Part shown: in pieces, positions 20,481 through 31,507 of the stretch
Layout: the number at the start of each line of letters is the position of its first letter
Numbering within the stretch: the stretch's first letter is position 1
Assembly (NCBI RefSeq): GCF_023169885.1
Contig: NZ_AP025516.1
Location: 3,699,501 to 3,763,500, forward strand
Length of the DNA stretch: 64,000 nucleotides
Direction: 5' to 3'
DNA from: Desulfofustis limnaeus
GTDB lineage: Bacteria > Desulfobacterota > Desulfobulbia > Desulfobulbales > Desulfocapsaceae
Made by a program: the position numbers and the translations under genes
The notes under the pieces: model-generated
Told to the model about the DNA's origin: nothing
The model's database searches: none
What the model saw: the letters and a program-made list of their open reading frames with translations, nothing else

Positions 20481-21071
20481 CTATGCCCCCTTCTTCTGCA
20501 ATTCTTCGTCAATGATCTTCTTGAAATAATCAAACGGACGCTCACCAACCACTTGCCGGCCGTTGATGTAGAAGGTCGGGGTATTGTACAGGTCCATCTC
20601 TTCAGCCAACTGGATATCGCGATCTATCTCCTGGTCAAACTTTTTTTCGTCAAGGGCCTTGGTAAAGACGCCCACATCGAGCCCCAGCTCGGTGGCATAG
20701 GCGATCAGGCTGTTACGATCCAGATCCGGCGAACGGGTAATCAGGATGTCATGCATCTCCCAATACTTTCCCTGTTCCCGGGCAGCCAGCGACGCCGCTG
20801 CCGAGATTCTGGCAAAATCACGGTATTTGTACGGATAGTTTTTAATCACCAGACGGATCTTGTCGGGATAGGCGGCGAGAATCTGCTTCACGGTCGGACC
20901 GACCGCAACACAGTGGGGTCACTGAAAGTCGAGAAATTCGATGATGGTTACCGGCGCATCGGCCGGTCCAAGCGACGGGGAATCTCCGATCGGCACGTCG
21001 AATCGCTTCTCCTGGGCGCCAGCCAGGCAGGCCCAGAAAAGAACAGCAAGCAACAGCACAATTTTTTTCAT
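20481..21071 (-). CDS. Selenocysteine DsbA-like thioredoxin-fold protein (UPHC active site)
   Basis: Reading through an in-frame UGA at 20919-20921 gives a 196-residue protein with signal peptide (MKKIVLLLAVLFW...AGA), VTIIEFLDFQ, then U51-P-H-C54, followed by a DsbA-like helical domain and the cis-Pro region YNTPTFYING. In thioredoxin folds this position is normally CPHC, so Sec replaces the first, reactive Cys. A hairpin 13 bases after the UGA, with a GGTC-containing loop, fits a bacterial SECIS. Without recoding, the C-terminal 136 residues would lack both signal peptide and active site. It lies between fdnI and the diheme peroxidase. It probably acts as a periplasmic thiol/selenol oxidoreductase or isomerase; the partner is unknown. 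Confidence 0.9.
20891..20905 (-). promoter_or_regulatory. Putative SECIS hairpin of DsbA-like gene
   Basis: A perfect stem-loop (CGGTC, loop GGTCC, GACCG) lies 13 bases after the UGA, inside the coding frame. Bacterial SECIS elements lie just downstream of the UGA and need G and U in the apical loop, which fits. A fold prediction and SelB-binding comparison would be decisive. Confidence 0.65.
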
Positions 21072-22540: not shown

Positions 22541-25500
22541 CTATGCCTTCCGAACGTTGACCATGAAGGCCTTTGACTCGGGTATCATTGTATTCGCGTC
22601 ACCCACGTTCGGTGTCAGGAGGTTGGCGCTGTCATAGCCGCTGCCGTCCTCGGGAAACTGCCAGCCGAAGTGCCAGGGTAGACCAACCTGATGCACGGTG
22701 GTGTTCATCACCTTGAACGGCTTAAACCGCTCGGACACCAGGGCCACCGCCTTCACCTCGCCGCGGCCGGAGGAGACAACCACCGTTTCGCCGTTGCTAA
22801 TGCCCAGTTCTTTCGCCAACTCAAAGCTCATCTCGACGAAGTTCTGCGGTTGCATCTCCAACAGCCAGGAACAGTGCCGGGTCATACAGCCGGTCTGCCA
22901 ATGTTCCGTCACCCGGTAGGTGGTGCCGACAAAGGGATAGCGCAGGTCACAGGAGAAGAAGGCATCCATCTGATCGCCGAAGATCTTGATGGTCGGGTTG
23001 ATCCGCTGCTTCGACATGGCATTTTCTTCCAGCGGGCACTCCAACGCCTCGTAATGCTCCGGGAACGGTCCTTCAGCGAGGCCCGGGCCGAAGACTGAGG
23101 CGACACCGTCCGATTTCATGATGAATGGCAGGCCGCCGGAAACACCCATCGGCGGGGCTCCGCCGTCGGGTACATCACCGACCCAGCCGGGTTTGGCAGC
23201 ATCCCAGGTAAGTAGCGGCCGTTCCGGATCCCACGGCTGGCCCTGCAGATCCACCGAGGCCCGATTGTAAATGATCCGCCGATTGACCGGCCAAGACCAG
23301 GACCAATTGGAATAGAGGCCGAGACCGGTGGGGTCCTCCTTGCCGCGCCGGGCCATCATGTTGACCTCCTTGCCGTCCTTGAGCACGTACGAGTTGCAAT
23401 ACAGCCAGTTGCCGCTCGAGGTGGAACCGTCGGCCTGCAGAAAGGCGAAACTGGGTACCAGATCTCCCTTTTTGCCCACCAACTTGGGCGGCTCAACCTT
23501 GGTGTCGTAAACGTCCTGCAGGTAATAGCCGTTGATTTCCTTAGCAATGGCGTGGGTGTCGAGATGTTTGACTTTGCCCTGTCCATCCTTCTCGCCGTAG
23601 TCCCAACTGAGTTTGACGATGGGGTCGGGGTAGGCGCCACCTTCCTTCAGGTAGAGATCCCGCACTTTATAATAGAGCTCGTTGATGATTTCCCCATCCG
23701 GCCATGACTCACCGATCGGGTCGATGGCCTTGTACCGCCACTGCGCCCAGCGACCGGAGTTGGAGATGCTCCCTTCCTTTTCCACCGAGGAGGCGCAGGG
23801 AAGCATGAATACCTCGGTCTGGATATCCGCCGGATTCATACCCGGCCCACGCCAGAACGAAGCCGTCTCGTTGTCGAAGAGGTTGACGTTGACCAGCCAT
23901 TTGAGTTTGGTCATGGCGACCCGCGTCTTGTTGGAGTTGGCCCCCGAACAGGCCGGGTTCTGCCCCCAGGCGAAGAATCCCTCGAACTCGCCCTGCAGCA
24001 TTTTTTCAAAGAGATTGAGCCAGGAAGCGTTCTGGCCCACATCGAGTTTCGGCAACCAGGCGTAGCCGAAATCGTTTTCCGGAACCGCCGCATCACCATA
24101 GAGCGCCTTGAGGTAACTCACGATGTACTTGTTGCGGTTGCTCCACCAGTTGAGACTACCCGGCTCGTTGGTCTTCGGAGTATTTTTTTCAATATAAGTG
24201 GCCAGATCGACATGTGAAGCATTGGGTGTCGGGTTGTACCCCGGCAGGATATGGAAGAGGATGCCGTAGTCGGTGGATCCCTGGACGTTGGACTCGCCGC
24301 GCAGGGCGTTGACGCCGCCGCCGGCCATGCCCATGTTGCCGAGCAGCATCTGGATGATGGCCATCGTCCTGATGTTCTGGGTGCCGACGGTATGCTGGGT
24401 CCAGCCCATGGCGTAACATTCGGTGCCGACCCGGTTCGGCTTGCCGGTCGATCCATACAACTCATAGACGGCCAGCAGCTTATCCTGCGGGGTACCGGTG
24501 ATACCCACCACTTTGTCGATGGTGTAACGAGCGTAATGCTTCTTCAAGAGTTGGAAGACGCAATTCGGATCCTCCAGGCTCGGATCTTTCAGGACCACCC
24601 CGTTTTCATCCTTCTGGTAAGTCCAGGTGGCTTTGTCGTAATTGCGCTTGTCTTCATTATACCCGGAGAACAACCCATCCAGATCGGCCGGTCCTTTGAA
24701 CTCGGGATTGACCAGAAAAGAAGCATTGGTGTAACTGACCACGTACTCCTTGAAGTAAAGATTGTTTTCCAGGATGTAGTTGATCATGCCGCCGAGGAAA
24801 GCGATATCCGTCCCCGAACGAAGCGGCGCATAGAGGTCGGCCTTGGCCGCCGTCTGCGAGAAACGGGGATCGACGCAGATCAACTTGGCCCCTTTCTGGC
24901 GGGCCCGCATGATCCATTTCATCGAGATGGGGTGGTTCGATGCCGGATTACCGCCCATGGCCAGAATGACATCGGCGTTTTTCAGATCGATCCAGTGGTT
25001 GGTCATTGCACCGCGTCCGAACGACTCTGCCAGAGCCGCAACCGTTGCGGAGTGTCAGATACGCGCCTGGTGTTCCACATACACCAGGCCCCAGGACCGA
25101 ACCAGTTTTTGAAGAATGTAGCACTCTTCATTGTCCAGCGCGGCACTACCCACGTGGGCGATGGCATCCGTGCGGTTGACCACAAAGCCTTTCTCAACCG
25201 TCTTGAAGCTCTTGTCCCGGGCATCTTTGACCAACCGGGCAATCCGGTCCAAGGCCCAGTCCCACTCCACCTCCTTCCAGGCAGTCCCGCCCGGTTCGCG
25301 ATACATGGGTTTGCGCACGCGGTACTCGTTGTTCGGGAGCTGCATGATCGAGGCCCCCTTGGAACACAAAGCGCCTTCATTGATCGGATGATCGGGGTCG
25401 CCTTCGGTATTGATGACCTTCCCGTTCTCGGCGTAGACGATGATGCTGCATCCCACCGAGCAATACGGGCAGATCGTTGTCGTCTGCTTGGCGTTCTTGA

Positions 25501-25609
25501 TCCGCAACTCCTGGGCATAGGCCCGGGCCGGGTCAAGATTGACGCCGAGCGCGCCGACCAGAGCGGTGGAACCCGACAGTTTGAGGAAATCCCGTCTTGA
25601 TACTCCCAT
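22541..25609 (-). CDS. fdnG: Formate dehydrogenase-N catalytic subunit, selenocysteine protein
   Basis: This is one 1022-residue gene interrupted by an in-frame UGA at 25055-25057, read as Sec185. The N-terminus has a twin-arginine signal (SRRDFLKLSG), then the Fe-S motif C47-x2-C50-x3-C54 with C82. The UGA lies in the RIU-HSATVAALAESFG context that is the active-site signature of FdnG/FdhF. The rest is a molybdopterin oxidoreductase (bis-MGD, Mo or W). It oxidises formate at the periplasmic side and feeds FdnH and FdnI. Downstream hairpins (25023-25037, GGCTC/GAGTC; and 25036-25050) are candidate SECIS parts. Splitting at the UGA would give a 184- and an 821-residue fragment, which is an annotation artefact. 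Confidence 0.95.
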
Positions 25610-28767: not shown

Positions 28768-29211
28768 ATGTCGGATTCGAACAACTCTGATTACCTCACC
28801 TTGGCCGAGATCTTCAGTTATGATCCGAATTTTCAAGAACTCATGCTGAACATGCTGCAATCGGCATTTGAATCGTCATTCCAGGGAGTTATGATTACCG
28901 AGGCAGAACCCGGTTATCCCATTATCTATGTTAATCCGGCCATCTGCGAAATGACCGGATACACGCGCAAGGAGTTCATTGGCCAGTCACCGGCCATGCT
29001 CCAGGGCGAAAAGACCGACCCGGCGGTACTTGTGGAATTACGTGAAAAACTCGACCAGGGAGAAATCTTCCAGGGGAGGACCTACAATTATCGAAAAGAC
29101 GGATCTGAGTTCCTCATGGAATGGCGGATTGTCCCCATCCGTGGAGCGGAAGGCGAGATAGCAAACTACCTGGCCTTCCAGCGTGAAGTTCCGCTAACCG
29201 ATGCTCGTTGA
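28768..29211 (+). CDS. Stand-alone LOV-like PAS domain protein without the photoactive Cys
   Basis: This 147-residue protein is essentially one PAS domain: FQGVMITEAEPGYPIIYVNPAI, then GYTRKEFIGQSPAMLQGEKTD (residues 64-84), and a C-terminal RTYNYRKDGSEFLMEW strand pair. The middle segment aligns with the LOV signature GxNCRFLQG, but the flavin-adduct Cys is replaced (GQSPAMLQG). A flavin or other ligand might still bind, but no photoadduct can form. There is no output domain. It directly precedes the selenopeptide gene, with a separate promoter between them, so a regulatory link is only a guess. Confidence 0.8.
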   Translation: MSDSNNSDYLTLAEIFSYDPNFQELMLNMLQSAFESSFQGVMITEAEPGYPIIYVNPAICEMTGYTRKEFIGQSPAMLQGEKTDPAVLVELREKLDQGEIFQGRTYNYRKDGSEFLMEWRIVPIRGAEGEIANYLAFQREVPLTDAR

Positions 29212-29352
29212 TCCCTCGCGCTGATTGATCCGCCGGCACTGACAAGGAATTGATCGGGACTGGAGGCAACCACCAGAGACCGCGGCAACCTCCGGTGAGC
29301 GAACCCCCATCGCCCGAGCCTATCGATTCATTGGCATTGATTCATATTTCCT

Positions 29353-29381
29353 TTGAGTCCGCCCCGAGAAACAGGTATGAT
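29353..29381 (+). promoter_or_regulatory. Promoter of the selenopeptide gene
   Basis: TTGAGT at 29353-29358 and TATGAT at 29376-29381 are spaced by 17 bases. Transcription would start near 29388 and give a leader of about 57 bases that begins with a 7-bp hairpin (GGTAGGC 29392-29398 with GCCTACC 29409-29415) and ends in GAGGAG at 29432-29437, seven bases before the ATG. Confidence 0.65.
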
Positions 29382-29444
29382 CATAGTGTGTGGTAGGCTA
29401 TGCTGGTGGCCTACCGATCGCCCATCTTATCGAGGAGCGGATGT

Positions 29445-29828
29445 ATGAAGAAAGAGCTGAAAAAAGCATTGGCCGGGCTGGGTGTCGCAGGATTGCTCAG
29501 TGCCGGCGGCGTGACCCTTCCCGGCGCCATGGCGGCCGGTAGCGGCTGAGGCGCAAAACCCAGTGCCGGCGGCACTGAAGCGGCAAAACCAGCGACAGGC
29601 AGCGGTTGAAGCGGTCAAACGGGTGCCGGGAGCACCCAACCGACCGAAGCACCGGCGGCAGGCAGCGGCTGAAGCGGCCAGACGGGTACCGGGAGTACCC
29701 AACCGGCCTCGCCACCCACCACCGGGAGTGGCTGAAGCGGGAGCAAAGACAGCGCCGGGAGCGCTGACCAACAACCCGCCGAGCAACCAGCCGAACAAAA
29801 ACCCAAGAAGAGCGGCTGAAGCGGTTGA
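29445..29828 (+). CDS. sbtA: Selenocysteine-rich RiPP precursor peptide, SbtA type (five in-frame UGA)
   Basis: From the ATG at 29445 the frame runs 127 codons with no UAA or UAG, five UGA codons (29547, 29607, 29670, 29733, 29817) and a final UGA at 29826 taken as the stop. The product has a leader MKKELKKALAGLGVAGLLSAGG followed by P-G-A-M-A-A, then repeats of (G/K)SGU(S/G)(G/A), with Sec at residues 35, 55, 76, 97 and 125. Spacers between repeats are rich in Gly, Thr, Ser, Pro and Gln. This leader and the repeated Sec motif match my memory of the SbtA family of thio(seleno)oxazole precursors. Each UGA is followed by a hairpin. The gene for a radical SAM/SPASM maturase is next. Standard annotation would see only a 34-residue fragment or antisense frames. 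The mature product and its function are unknown. Confidence 0.9.
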
Positions 29829-29847
29829 CCAACCGTGCGGTCGCACG
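29562..29847 (+). promoter_or_regulatory. Array of five phased SECIS-like hairpins inside sbtA
   Basis: Hairpins lie at 29562-29576 (AGTGC/GCACT), 29621-29637 (GGGTGC/GCACCC), 29684-29700 (GGGTAC/GTACCC), 29750-29766 (CAGCGC/GCGCTG) and 29834-29847 (CGTGC/GCACG). They start 12, 11, 11, 14 and 14 bases after their UGA. Loops 2-4 are all CGGGA; loop 5 is GGTC. Between hairpins 2 and 3 one pair changes from G-C to A-T: the first change alters an amino acid and the matching one is a silent AGC-to-AGT, so the stem is kept by a compensating synonymous change. Confidence 0.8.
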
Positions 29848-29855
29848 TCACCAGG

Positions 29856-29891
29856 GGTGTCGCTGCCGCGAGTCGTCGGGGCAGCGACACC
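29856..29891 (+). promoter_or_regulatory. Perfect 12-bp hairpin between sbtA and the maturase gene
   Basis: GGTGTCGCTGCC at 29856-29867 pairs with GGCAGCGACACC at 29880-29891 across a 12-base loop. No T-run follows, so it is not a classical terminator. It could be a partial terminator or an RNA-end stabiliser that makes precursor mRNA more abundant than maturase mRNA, a common arrangement in RiPP operons. Confidence 0.7.
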
Positions 29892-29959
29892 GGTCACCCC
29901 TATATCCATCGGCCGATAACCTGCCAGAACGTCCATCTTCACCTTGAACAAGCCGGTCG

Positions 29960-31507
29960 ATGCCCCCGGACCTCCTTCACATCTTCCCCGTCAGCAGCAC
30001 TCTGCTTCCCGACGATTTCGTCCGCCCGTCGGCCGCCGCGCTTCCGCATCTTCTCCGGAGGTCGACGGCACTATCGAGACGCCACCCCTATCTGGCCGAT
30101 CTCGCTGAAATAGAACTGCAGATCTACCAGCTCAACCAACACCCACCTTCCCTGCCCGACATCGTCGATCATCTGCAGGTCAAACCGGGAGTCACGTTGC
30201 TGGAGGTTGGCTGGAACAGATTGCCGGAACGCCTTAACAATCAGCAGATCGAACCGCAAGCTGAATCATCTCTGGTTCTGCTGGTCCCGCCGACCGCCAC
30301 CACCCCCAGCCGTGCCCTGACCCCCAGTGGCCACCAACTACTGGCCATGAAAATTGCCGTCGAACACCTGGACCCCAAAACCGTAGCCGCCGAAGGCGAT
30401 GTTCCGGTAGGCGTGATCGATCGGCTCATTGCCGCCGCTGTCCGGGACGGTCTGTTGCTCGCACCGGCATCCGCCCTGGTCCGGCCGCCGTCCTATTTTC
30501 CGGCCGAAGCTCGCTTTCACAACCGACTCAAGGCCGATGTTTTCACACTGCAATGGCATATCACCCAAGCCTGCGACCTGCACTGTCGTCACTGTTACGA
30601 CCGCAGCAGCAGGACTGCCGTTTCCGCCGATCAGGGGAGAATGGTTCTCGATCGGTTCTACGATTTCTGCCAGGCCAATCACGTTCGCGGGCAGGTCAGC
30701 TTCACGGGCGGCAACCCGTTGCTCCATAGCCATTTTTTCGATCTCTATCGGGGAGCGGTGGAACGCGGCTTCATGGTTGCCATCCTAGGCAACCCGACCG
30801 ATCGCCAGACCCTCGAAGCCATTATTGCCCTGGCCAAACCGGAGTTCTATCAGGTCAGCCTGGAAGGTCTGCCGGAACATAACGATTACATCCGCGGCAT
30901 CGGCCATTTCCAACGGACCATGGCCTTTCTCGAAGTGGCCCGGGAGATGCGCATCTATACCATGGTCATGCTTACCCTGACCCGAGACAATCAGGATCAC
31001 GTATTGCCCCTGGCAGAGGTGCTGCGCCATCGCGTCGATCTGTTCACCTTCAACCGTCTGGCCATGATGGGCGAGGGAGCAGCACTGGCCTCCGCTCCGG
31101 TGGACGATTATCAAACTTTTCTTAAGCAGTACCTGCAGGCCGCTGCCGAAAACCCGATCATGAGCCTCAAGGACAGCCTCTTCAACATCATCCTCGATCA
31201 GGACGGACGGCCACCTGGCGGCGGTTGCGCCGGATTCGGTTGCGGAGCGGCCTTCAATTTCGTCTCCCTGCTCCCGGACGGAGAGGTACACGCCTGCCGC
31301 AAGCTCCCCTCCCTGCTCGGCAACCTCCATGAGCAGACTCTGCTGGAGATTTACCGCAGCCCCCTGGCAGCTGCTTTCCGCGAGGGCAGCTCCGCCTGCC
31401 GCCCCTGTCCCCTGCGCCCGGTCTGCCGGGGCTGTCCCGCCGTCGTCGCCGGGCTCGGCGGCGATATCTTCACCACCATCGACCCCTATTGTTTTTGCCG
31501 CCACTGA
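29960..31507 (+). CDS. sbtM: Radical SAM/SPASM peptide maturase, SbtM type
   Basis: This 515-residue protein has a roughly 190-residue N-terminal region that could hold the peptide-recognition part. The radical SAM motif is CDLHCRHC with Cys205, Cys209 and Cys212, followed by the GGNPLL motif. A C-terminal SPASM-like region has Cys423 and Cys428, CRKL, and a dense CPLRPVCRGCPAV cluster binding extra Fe-S clusters. It lies 131 bases after the selenopeptide stop on the same strand. SbtM family proteins are proposed to form thio- or selenoazole-type modifications on SbtA; I infer the same pairing here. There is no clear ribosome site at the ATG, and no transporter or protease gene follows. Confidence 0.85.
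   Translation: MPPDLLHIFPVSSTLLPDDFVRPSAAALPHLLRRSTALSRRHPYLADLAEIELQIYQLNQHPPSLPDIVDHLQVKPGVTLLEVGWNRLPERLNNQQIEPQAESSLVLLVPPTATTPSRALTPSGHQLLAMKIAVEHLDPKTVAAEGDVPVGVIDRLIAAAVRDGLLLAPASALVRPPSYFPAEARFHNRLKADVFTLQWHITQACDLHCRHCYDRSSRTAVSADQGRMVLDRFYDFCQANHVRGQVSFTGGNPLLHSHFFDLYRGAVERGFMVAILGNPTDRQTLEAIIALAKPEFYQVSLEGLPEHNDYIRGIGHFQRTMAFLEVAREMRIYTMVMLTLTRDNQDHVLPLAEVLRHRVDLFTFNRLAMMGEGAALASAPVDDYQTFLKQYLQAAAENPIMSLKDSLFNIILDQDGRPPGGGCAGFGCGAAFNFVSLLPDGEVHACRKLPSLLGNLHEQTLLEIYRSPLAAAFREGSSACRPCPLRPVCRGCPAVVAGLGGDIFTTIDPYCFCRH

Follow-up and report, generated by a model that had tools for sequence, protein, structure and literature searches.

A very likely five-selenocysteine SbtA precursor beside its radical SAM/SPASM maturase SbtM in Desulfofustis limnaeus

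A 64 kb stretch of the Desulfofustis limnaeus genome (NZ_AP025516.1, 3,699,501-3,763,500, forward strand; hereafter the window, with coordinates counted from its start) very likely carries a real and functional gene, sbtA (29445..29828, + strand), for a peptide precursor with five selenocysteine (Sec) residues, next to the gene of its radical SAM/SPASM maturase, sbtM (29960..31507, + strand, 515 aa). This is the core of an original prediction that had read the locus as a hidden precursor of a ribosomally synthesized and post-translationally modified peptide (RiPP), and it is supported by family models, by covariation in hairpins of the selenocysteine insertion sequence (SECIS) type, and by a genome that contains selB, tRNA-Sec and selD. 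The SbtA/SbtM family is already known, and what is of value here is the Sec count, the pairing of two codes in one RNA, and a parallel with the bufferins.

Translation from the ATG at 29445 gives 127 codons with five in-frame UGAs, each in the predicted Ser-Gly-UGA context, no UAA or UAG, and a closing UGA. On the + strand, the Sec-UGAs lie at 29547..29549 (U35), 29607..29609 (U55), 29670..29672 (U76), 29733..29735 (U97) and, three codons before the end, 29817..29819 (U125); the claim that they are evenly spaced is roughly right, although the codon spacings are 20, 21, 21 and 28. A putative ribosome-binding site, GAGGAG, can be read at 29432..29437 (+). Residues 1-30 (29445..29534, +) form a signal-peptide-like leader that ends in A-M-A, and residues 1-26 match the SbtA family model TIGR04081 with 41.6 bits (cut-off 30.5). 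The maturase begins 131 nt downstream of sbtA, matches TIGR04082 with 635.4 bits (cut-off 350), and has both the Radical_SAM and the SPASM domain in Pfam. For SbtA itself, Pfam gave no match with an E-value of 1 or below, including to DUF2282, a bufferin family, and Rfam returned nothing at E up to 1 across 29000-30200. One sigma-70-like site was found (29353-29381) where 0.7 were expected, so it is no evidence of a promoter.

In the open reading frame (ORF) listing, frames overlapping sbtA are open on both strands too, and an open frame by itself proves little in such a GC-rich stretch. These overlapping frames could favor a chance frame or a decayed gene, in which translation would yield 34 residues and end at the first UGA. 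What lifts sbtA above chance is that its leader passes TIGR04081, that a third-position excess and aligned UGAs are seen against a relative, and that a hairpin model picks exactly its five UGAs. The relative is Desulfofustis glycolicus DSM 9705 (L013), the closest named one among the matches listed, whose SbtM is 67% identical and whose SbtA has the same sequence as that of a same-genus genome (L118). Over the 78 codons compared past the first UGA, the two sbtA genes differ at 19 first, 11 second and 38 third codon positions, and this third-position excess (38 of 68 differences) has a binomial p of 1.1e-4. All four UGAs of the D. glycolicus gene align with UGAs in the window gene, which has one extra repeat with a UGA; by this alignment, a whole repeat unit was gained in the window gene or lost in D. 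glycolicus.

Behind each of the five Sec-UGAs lies a SECIS-type hairpin (+ strand) with a stem of 5-7 pairs and a loop that starts 17-20 nt downstream. Hairpin 1 is CAGUGCC GGC GGCACUG (29561..29577, loop at 18 nt), hairpin 2 GGGUGC CGGGA GCACCC (29621..29637, 17 nt), hairpin 3 GGGUAC CGGGA GUACCC (29684..29700, 17 nt), and hairpin 4 CAGCGC CGGGA GCGCUG (29750..29766, 20 nt), while hairpin 5, CGUGC GGUC GCACG (29834..29847, 19 nt), lies beyond the stop and is weak when folded alone. The sixth UGA (29826..29828, +), which has merely 10 nt to the loop of hairpin 5 and no hairpin of -5 kcal/mol at Sec distance, is read as the true stop. Taken singly, the hairpins of this gene are not extreme, with z-scores of -1.0, -3.4, -1.9, -1.5 and +1.1 (joint p 0.006), and 4-15% of all window TGAs have a stem of equal stability behind them. 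It is the comparison with relatives that gives the strong evidence.

For the comparison, 111 SbtM loci were surveyed, namely the window, the best 80 of 311 loci of SbtM relatives, and 30 more from family genomes. An SbtA leader was present at 77; one of these (L082, 12.6 bits) fell under a 25-bit cut, and 76 were kept, 67 of them distinct. No leader was found in the fetched flank of the other 34 loci, several of these flanks being cut off. At L042, L044, L047, L057, L058 and L073, the SbtA leader is located 2-4 kb downstream instead. Of the 181 Sec-UGAs in the 67 distinct SbtAs, a count that leans on our own context rule for calling Sec, 172 are followed by a stem at least as stable as -5 kcal/mol whose loop lies 16-25 nt away, versus 1 of 20 SbtA stop UGAs (Fisher p 7e-19, over related rather than independent sequences). 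At stricter thresholds in the same unselected set, hairpins remained at 166/181 (-6 kcal/mol) and 145/181 (-7 kcal/mol) Sec-UGAs.

Two sets of chosen elements displayed covariation in these stems. Set A2, picked by eye, comprised 77 of 112 references (up to two per locus, from a total of 156), mostly internal with a few terminal rows, from which near-duplicate rows and, in twin UGAs, the first one had been dropped; 96.1% of its cells were paired and all six pairs exhibited changes on both sides. Set A4 comprised 34 of 43 terminal elements, the nine omitted including L079, which has no clear hairpin, and oddly spaced rows; here 98.0% of cells were paired, again with both-side changes in 6/6 pairs. 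The covariation score was reached by none of 500 shuffles in either set, and both sets retain L016, a Desulfofustis. One measure, further pair types, did not beat the shuffles in A2 and A4 (95/500 and 479/500). Sec-UGAs also occur as twins, spaced four or five codons from each other, in L016 (3618/3630), L035 (1796/1811) and L092 (3607/3622), where one downstream hairpin is seemingly shared.

Hairpin models R1 and R2 were built from these sets without the window and D. glycolicus and run on all 64 kb. R1 recovered the first four UGAs (E 2.5e-7 to 3.7e-4; next match at E 1.3) and missed UGA 5, while R2 found exactly the five Sec-UGAs (E 0.0087 to 0.31; UGA 5 at 0.047), with no further match up to E 10. 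In D. glycolicus, R1 found three of the four UGAs. R1 had no match at two selD loci of the D. limnaeus genome (L011 and L012) and is therefore specific to SbtA in sequence.

These two selD genes contain one in-frame UGA each. The genome also encodes selB (364.7 bits, cut-off 242.25) and a tRNA-Sec (72.5 bits, gathering threshold 47) with a TCA anticodon by ARAGORN, so that selB and selC, whose absence was named in advance as evidence against Sec, were both found. Two models had no match in this genome for selA, whose absence had been named likewise, but its syntenic place reads N: in the same-genus genome, selA adjoins a TPR-type gene, and because the counterpart of that gene here borders a run of N, absence of selA cannot be claimed. 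selA is found in 72 of 93 family genomes, including the same-genus one. PF03841 weakly matched one candidate SelA (19.4 bits against a cut-off of 22.8), an open frame (L010) that was rejected because by eye it looks like a pyridoxal phosphate (PLP) enzyme of Cys/Met metabolism. No SepSecS that might substitute for SelA was found in the genome.

The unseen selA would, like the overlapping frames, suit a frame that ends at the first UGA. Against such a frame stand UGAs and hairpins conserved across relatives with covariation, a third-position signal beyond the UGAs, and the Sec machinery, which together leave it very improbable. Decoding as Sec is strongly supported by the hairpins that comparison reveals, and all five UGAs of sbtA are very likely decoded in this way.

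The number of Sec residues varies across the 67 distinct SbtAs, with none in one, one in 4, two in 25, three in 24, four in 11, five in one, and six in one. The five-Sec member is the window gene and the six-Sec member is L016 (Desulfofustis sp. PB-SRB1). Thus, five Sec is exceptional, as had been claimed, in being near the top of the family and above the published inventory, but it is not unique. In the portion of that 2026 inventory available to us, the SbtA family is listed as "Selenobacteriocin" with two Sec, and the vast majority of prokaryotic selenoprotein families have one Sec, a small subset having two or three (PMC13188914). Our literature search, which covered mostly open papers and had the founding ones outside its reach, returned no report of five or six Sec in an SbtA.

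An SGUG or SGUS context is present at 149 of the 181 family Sec sites. Among 201 matches to the pattern x-S-G/S-X-G/S/A/T, X is Sec (U) in 150 and Cys in 4, and a repeat thus rarely has Cys in place of Sec. Residues other than Cys or Sec at UGA positions, which the original prediction would have taken as refuting it, do occur at single repeats (L067, L088 and L117), but since the same genes keep their other UGAs and hairpins, we read these repeats as dispensable. A Glu-Gly-Cys C-terminus is present in 12 of the 67 distinct SbtAs. At L071 (from 3613) is an all-Cys SbtA with five Cys and a lipobox-like leader that lacks internal UGAs and the hairpin-coded motif described below. No relative was encoded on viral contigs.

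A Ser-Ala-Gly/Val-Ser-like motif is located at one of two fixed distances after 125 of 132 internal Sec residues, compared with 92 of 2267 positions elsewhere in the same peptides. This motif is the translation of the hairpin sequence. In terminal elements, the hairpin lies mostly beyond or overlapping the stop and is non-coding there (L079 has none), and in the all-Cys L071, a single case, internal UGA and motif are both absent. Therefore, the even repeats that resemble RiPP cores are, we infer, largely an imprint of the RNA signal. A test for covarying residues within the motif did not reach significance (Fisher p 0.066).

This bears on whether SbtA is the precursor of a secreted small RiPP, a "selenobacteriocin", in which the Sec cores would be modified, the leader and linkers removed by a protease whose gene lies elsewhere, and other cells targeted by the resulting short selenooxazole peptides. 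RiPP precursors often contain several cores, and the inventory name (PMC13188914, as far as available to us) points the same way. However, the regular linker motif is largely translated hairpin, some relatives have lipobox leaders, and across the surveyed loci no protease, exporter or immunity gene is widely conserved beside SbtM. We consider this alternative unlikely. A peptidase, presumably of the M16 type, is found at ~3.5 kb in 10 of 81 loci, among clade neighbors.

Since the neighborhood of SbtM has no widely conserved protease or exporter, the SbtA chain probably stays uncleaved. Its leader is typical to the extent that it matches TIGR04081, but in the motif survey it looks more like a signal peptide: by motif rules alone rather than SignalP, 10 of the 67 distinct SbtA leaders contain a lipobox and 42 an A-x-A. 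These motifs suggest that the product is probably exported. Directly upstream of sbtA (28768-29211, +) is a single PAS-domain protein of 147 aa, whose nearest NCBIfam models, below cut-off, are LOV-type light sensors. No Pfam match to PF05114, the family of multinuclear non-heme iron-dependent oxidative enzymes (MNIO), was detected in this PAS protein, in SbtM or in the flanking PrmA-like protein, the search covering these and not the rest of the genome.

The thio(seleno)oxazole system of SbtA and SbtM reportedly goes back to Haft and Basu (2011) and Lewis et al. (2021), known to us through reviews. It was thought in the original prediction to be computational only, but this did not hold: an SbtM has been assayed in vitro, where Cys and Sec peptides each lost four hydrogens and nuclear magnetic resonance (NMR) identified the Cys product as a thiooxazole, according to the parts of a review available to us (PMC11002830). 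By analogy, we think it somewhat likelier than the reverse that an oxazole would be formed at most Sec residues of SbtA.

This chemistry also bears on the alternative that SbtA is a selenium store or a redox or electron-carrying peptide, its Sec residues serving as selenols, selenosulfides or selenium cargo and only part of them being modified by SbtM. The rarity of Cys at the repeats and a Sec number that ranges from 1 to 6 among Sec-bearing members are consistent with such a role, and selenoproteins are mostly redox proteins in the inventory portion seen (PMC13188914). However, a dedicated maturase is adjacent, the chemistry reported in the available part of the review consumes Sec (PMC11002830), and the surrounding genes include no widely conserved redox partner. 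A store or redox peptide is in our judgment rather unlikely, though less so than a secreted RiPP.

Since VIA-align, given the full-length SbtM model, aligned chiefly residues 169-513, residues 62-172 (30143..30475, +) were predicted alone. In structure comparison, they are predicted to be like a RiPP recognition element (RRE) and seem to resemble the partners of thiooxazole-making MNIO enzymes. Homology of the SbtM N-terminus to MNIO partners was also sought by sequence, where a database search returned one 218-residue protein (P0124) without a Pfam domain, and nothing among PDB sequences. A PF22106 profile found no match in any of 395 genomes, control genomes included, and is hence uninformative. 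Sets A1 (36 of 121 SbtM proteins), A5 (53 of 76) and A6 (41 of 51 available pieces) were all picked by eye. SbtM shares its catalytic fold and N-terminal RRE-like part with the RRE-bearing radical SAM/SPASM RiPP maturases SuiB, CteB (which we take to be PDB 5wgg/5why) and TigE, but these have other chemistry (thioethers and others), another precursor, and less than 21% identity to SbtM.

From these observations, we propose the following route. SelB with Sec-tRNA-Sec would read the hairpin behind each UGA, and the sixth UGA, 10 nt from a loop, would end translation. The RRE-like domain may hold the leader for SbtM, which would form a (seleno)oxazole at Sec as the other SbtM did in vitro (PMC11002830, as above). 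The leader may afterwards act as a signal peptide, of the lipoprotein type in some relatives, and the chain would probably stay whole in the periplasm or on the membrane as a multi-site chelator of soft metals. As a whole, this explanation, a five-Sec SbtA with selenooxazoles made by SbtM, exported uncut and binding soft metals like a bufferin, is one that we hold tentatively, and metal buffering by the product, drawn by analogy, is slightly more tentative still.

The analogy is to bufferins and captophorins, copper peptides with 5-thiooxazoles made by MNIO enzymes (PMC12452194, PMC12668002 and PMC12538549, with further parallels from PMC12710340, each as far as available to us). Like SbtA, they have a signal-peptide-like leader, partly of the lipoprotein type; the same sort of heterocycle is reported, 5-thiooxazoles having a reported absorbance near 305 nm (PMC12668002), and their RRE appears similar in fold to the one predicted in SbtM. 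In contrast, they use MNIO and Cys, while SbtA/SbtM uses radical SAM and Sec and has no DUF2282 match. It is possible, if doubtful, that the thiooxazole metallophores have a selenium branch in SbtA/SbtM. In that case, a signal peptide would double as leader for an RRE of the MNIO-partner type that is joined to a radical SAM enzyme, anaerobes would buffer soft metals with an exported, uncleaved chain of up to six selenooxazoles, and the Ser-Ala-Gly/Val-Ser linker would be encoded by the SECIS hairpin as well. The literature search, with the reach given above, found no paper proposing an SbtA-bufferin link. With the SbtA/SbtM system already defined (TIGR04081/TIGR04082), the window locus has in common the leader, the adjacent SbtM, the Ser-Gly-Sec sites and the hairpin right after the UGA. 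Selenoprotein P of animals likewise has many Sec in one exported chain, as predicted for SbtA, but it is unrelated in sequence, has its SECIS elements in the 3' untranslated region (UTR) rather than a hairpin per UGA, and has no maturase.

Two more selenoproteins are likely encoded in the window. A formate dehydrogenase-N alpha subunit (22541-25609, - strand; UGA at 25057-25055) has U185 in ARI-U-HS and matches TIGR01553 with 1427 bits (cut-off 814.2); standard ORF calling splits its frame in two. The other (20481-21071, - strand; UGA at 20921-20919) is a DsbA-like thioredoxin-fold protein with FQ-U-PHC, whose best NCBIfam match, NF041057 (87 bits), is below the cut-off of 190.

With five Sec in 127 codons, four hairpins in frame and one behind the stop, sbtA offers a natural test case for UGA recoding in series, and also for the way in which a sixth UGA can still terminate translation. 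Family members have up to six Sec compared with two in the inventory, and annotation that stops at UGA would truncate such genes. If the product is indeed an exported chelator with multiple selenooxazoles, this would give the selenopeptide family a function and would link radical SAM enzymes with the thiooxazole chemistry of the MNIO enzymes.
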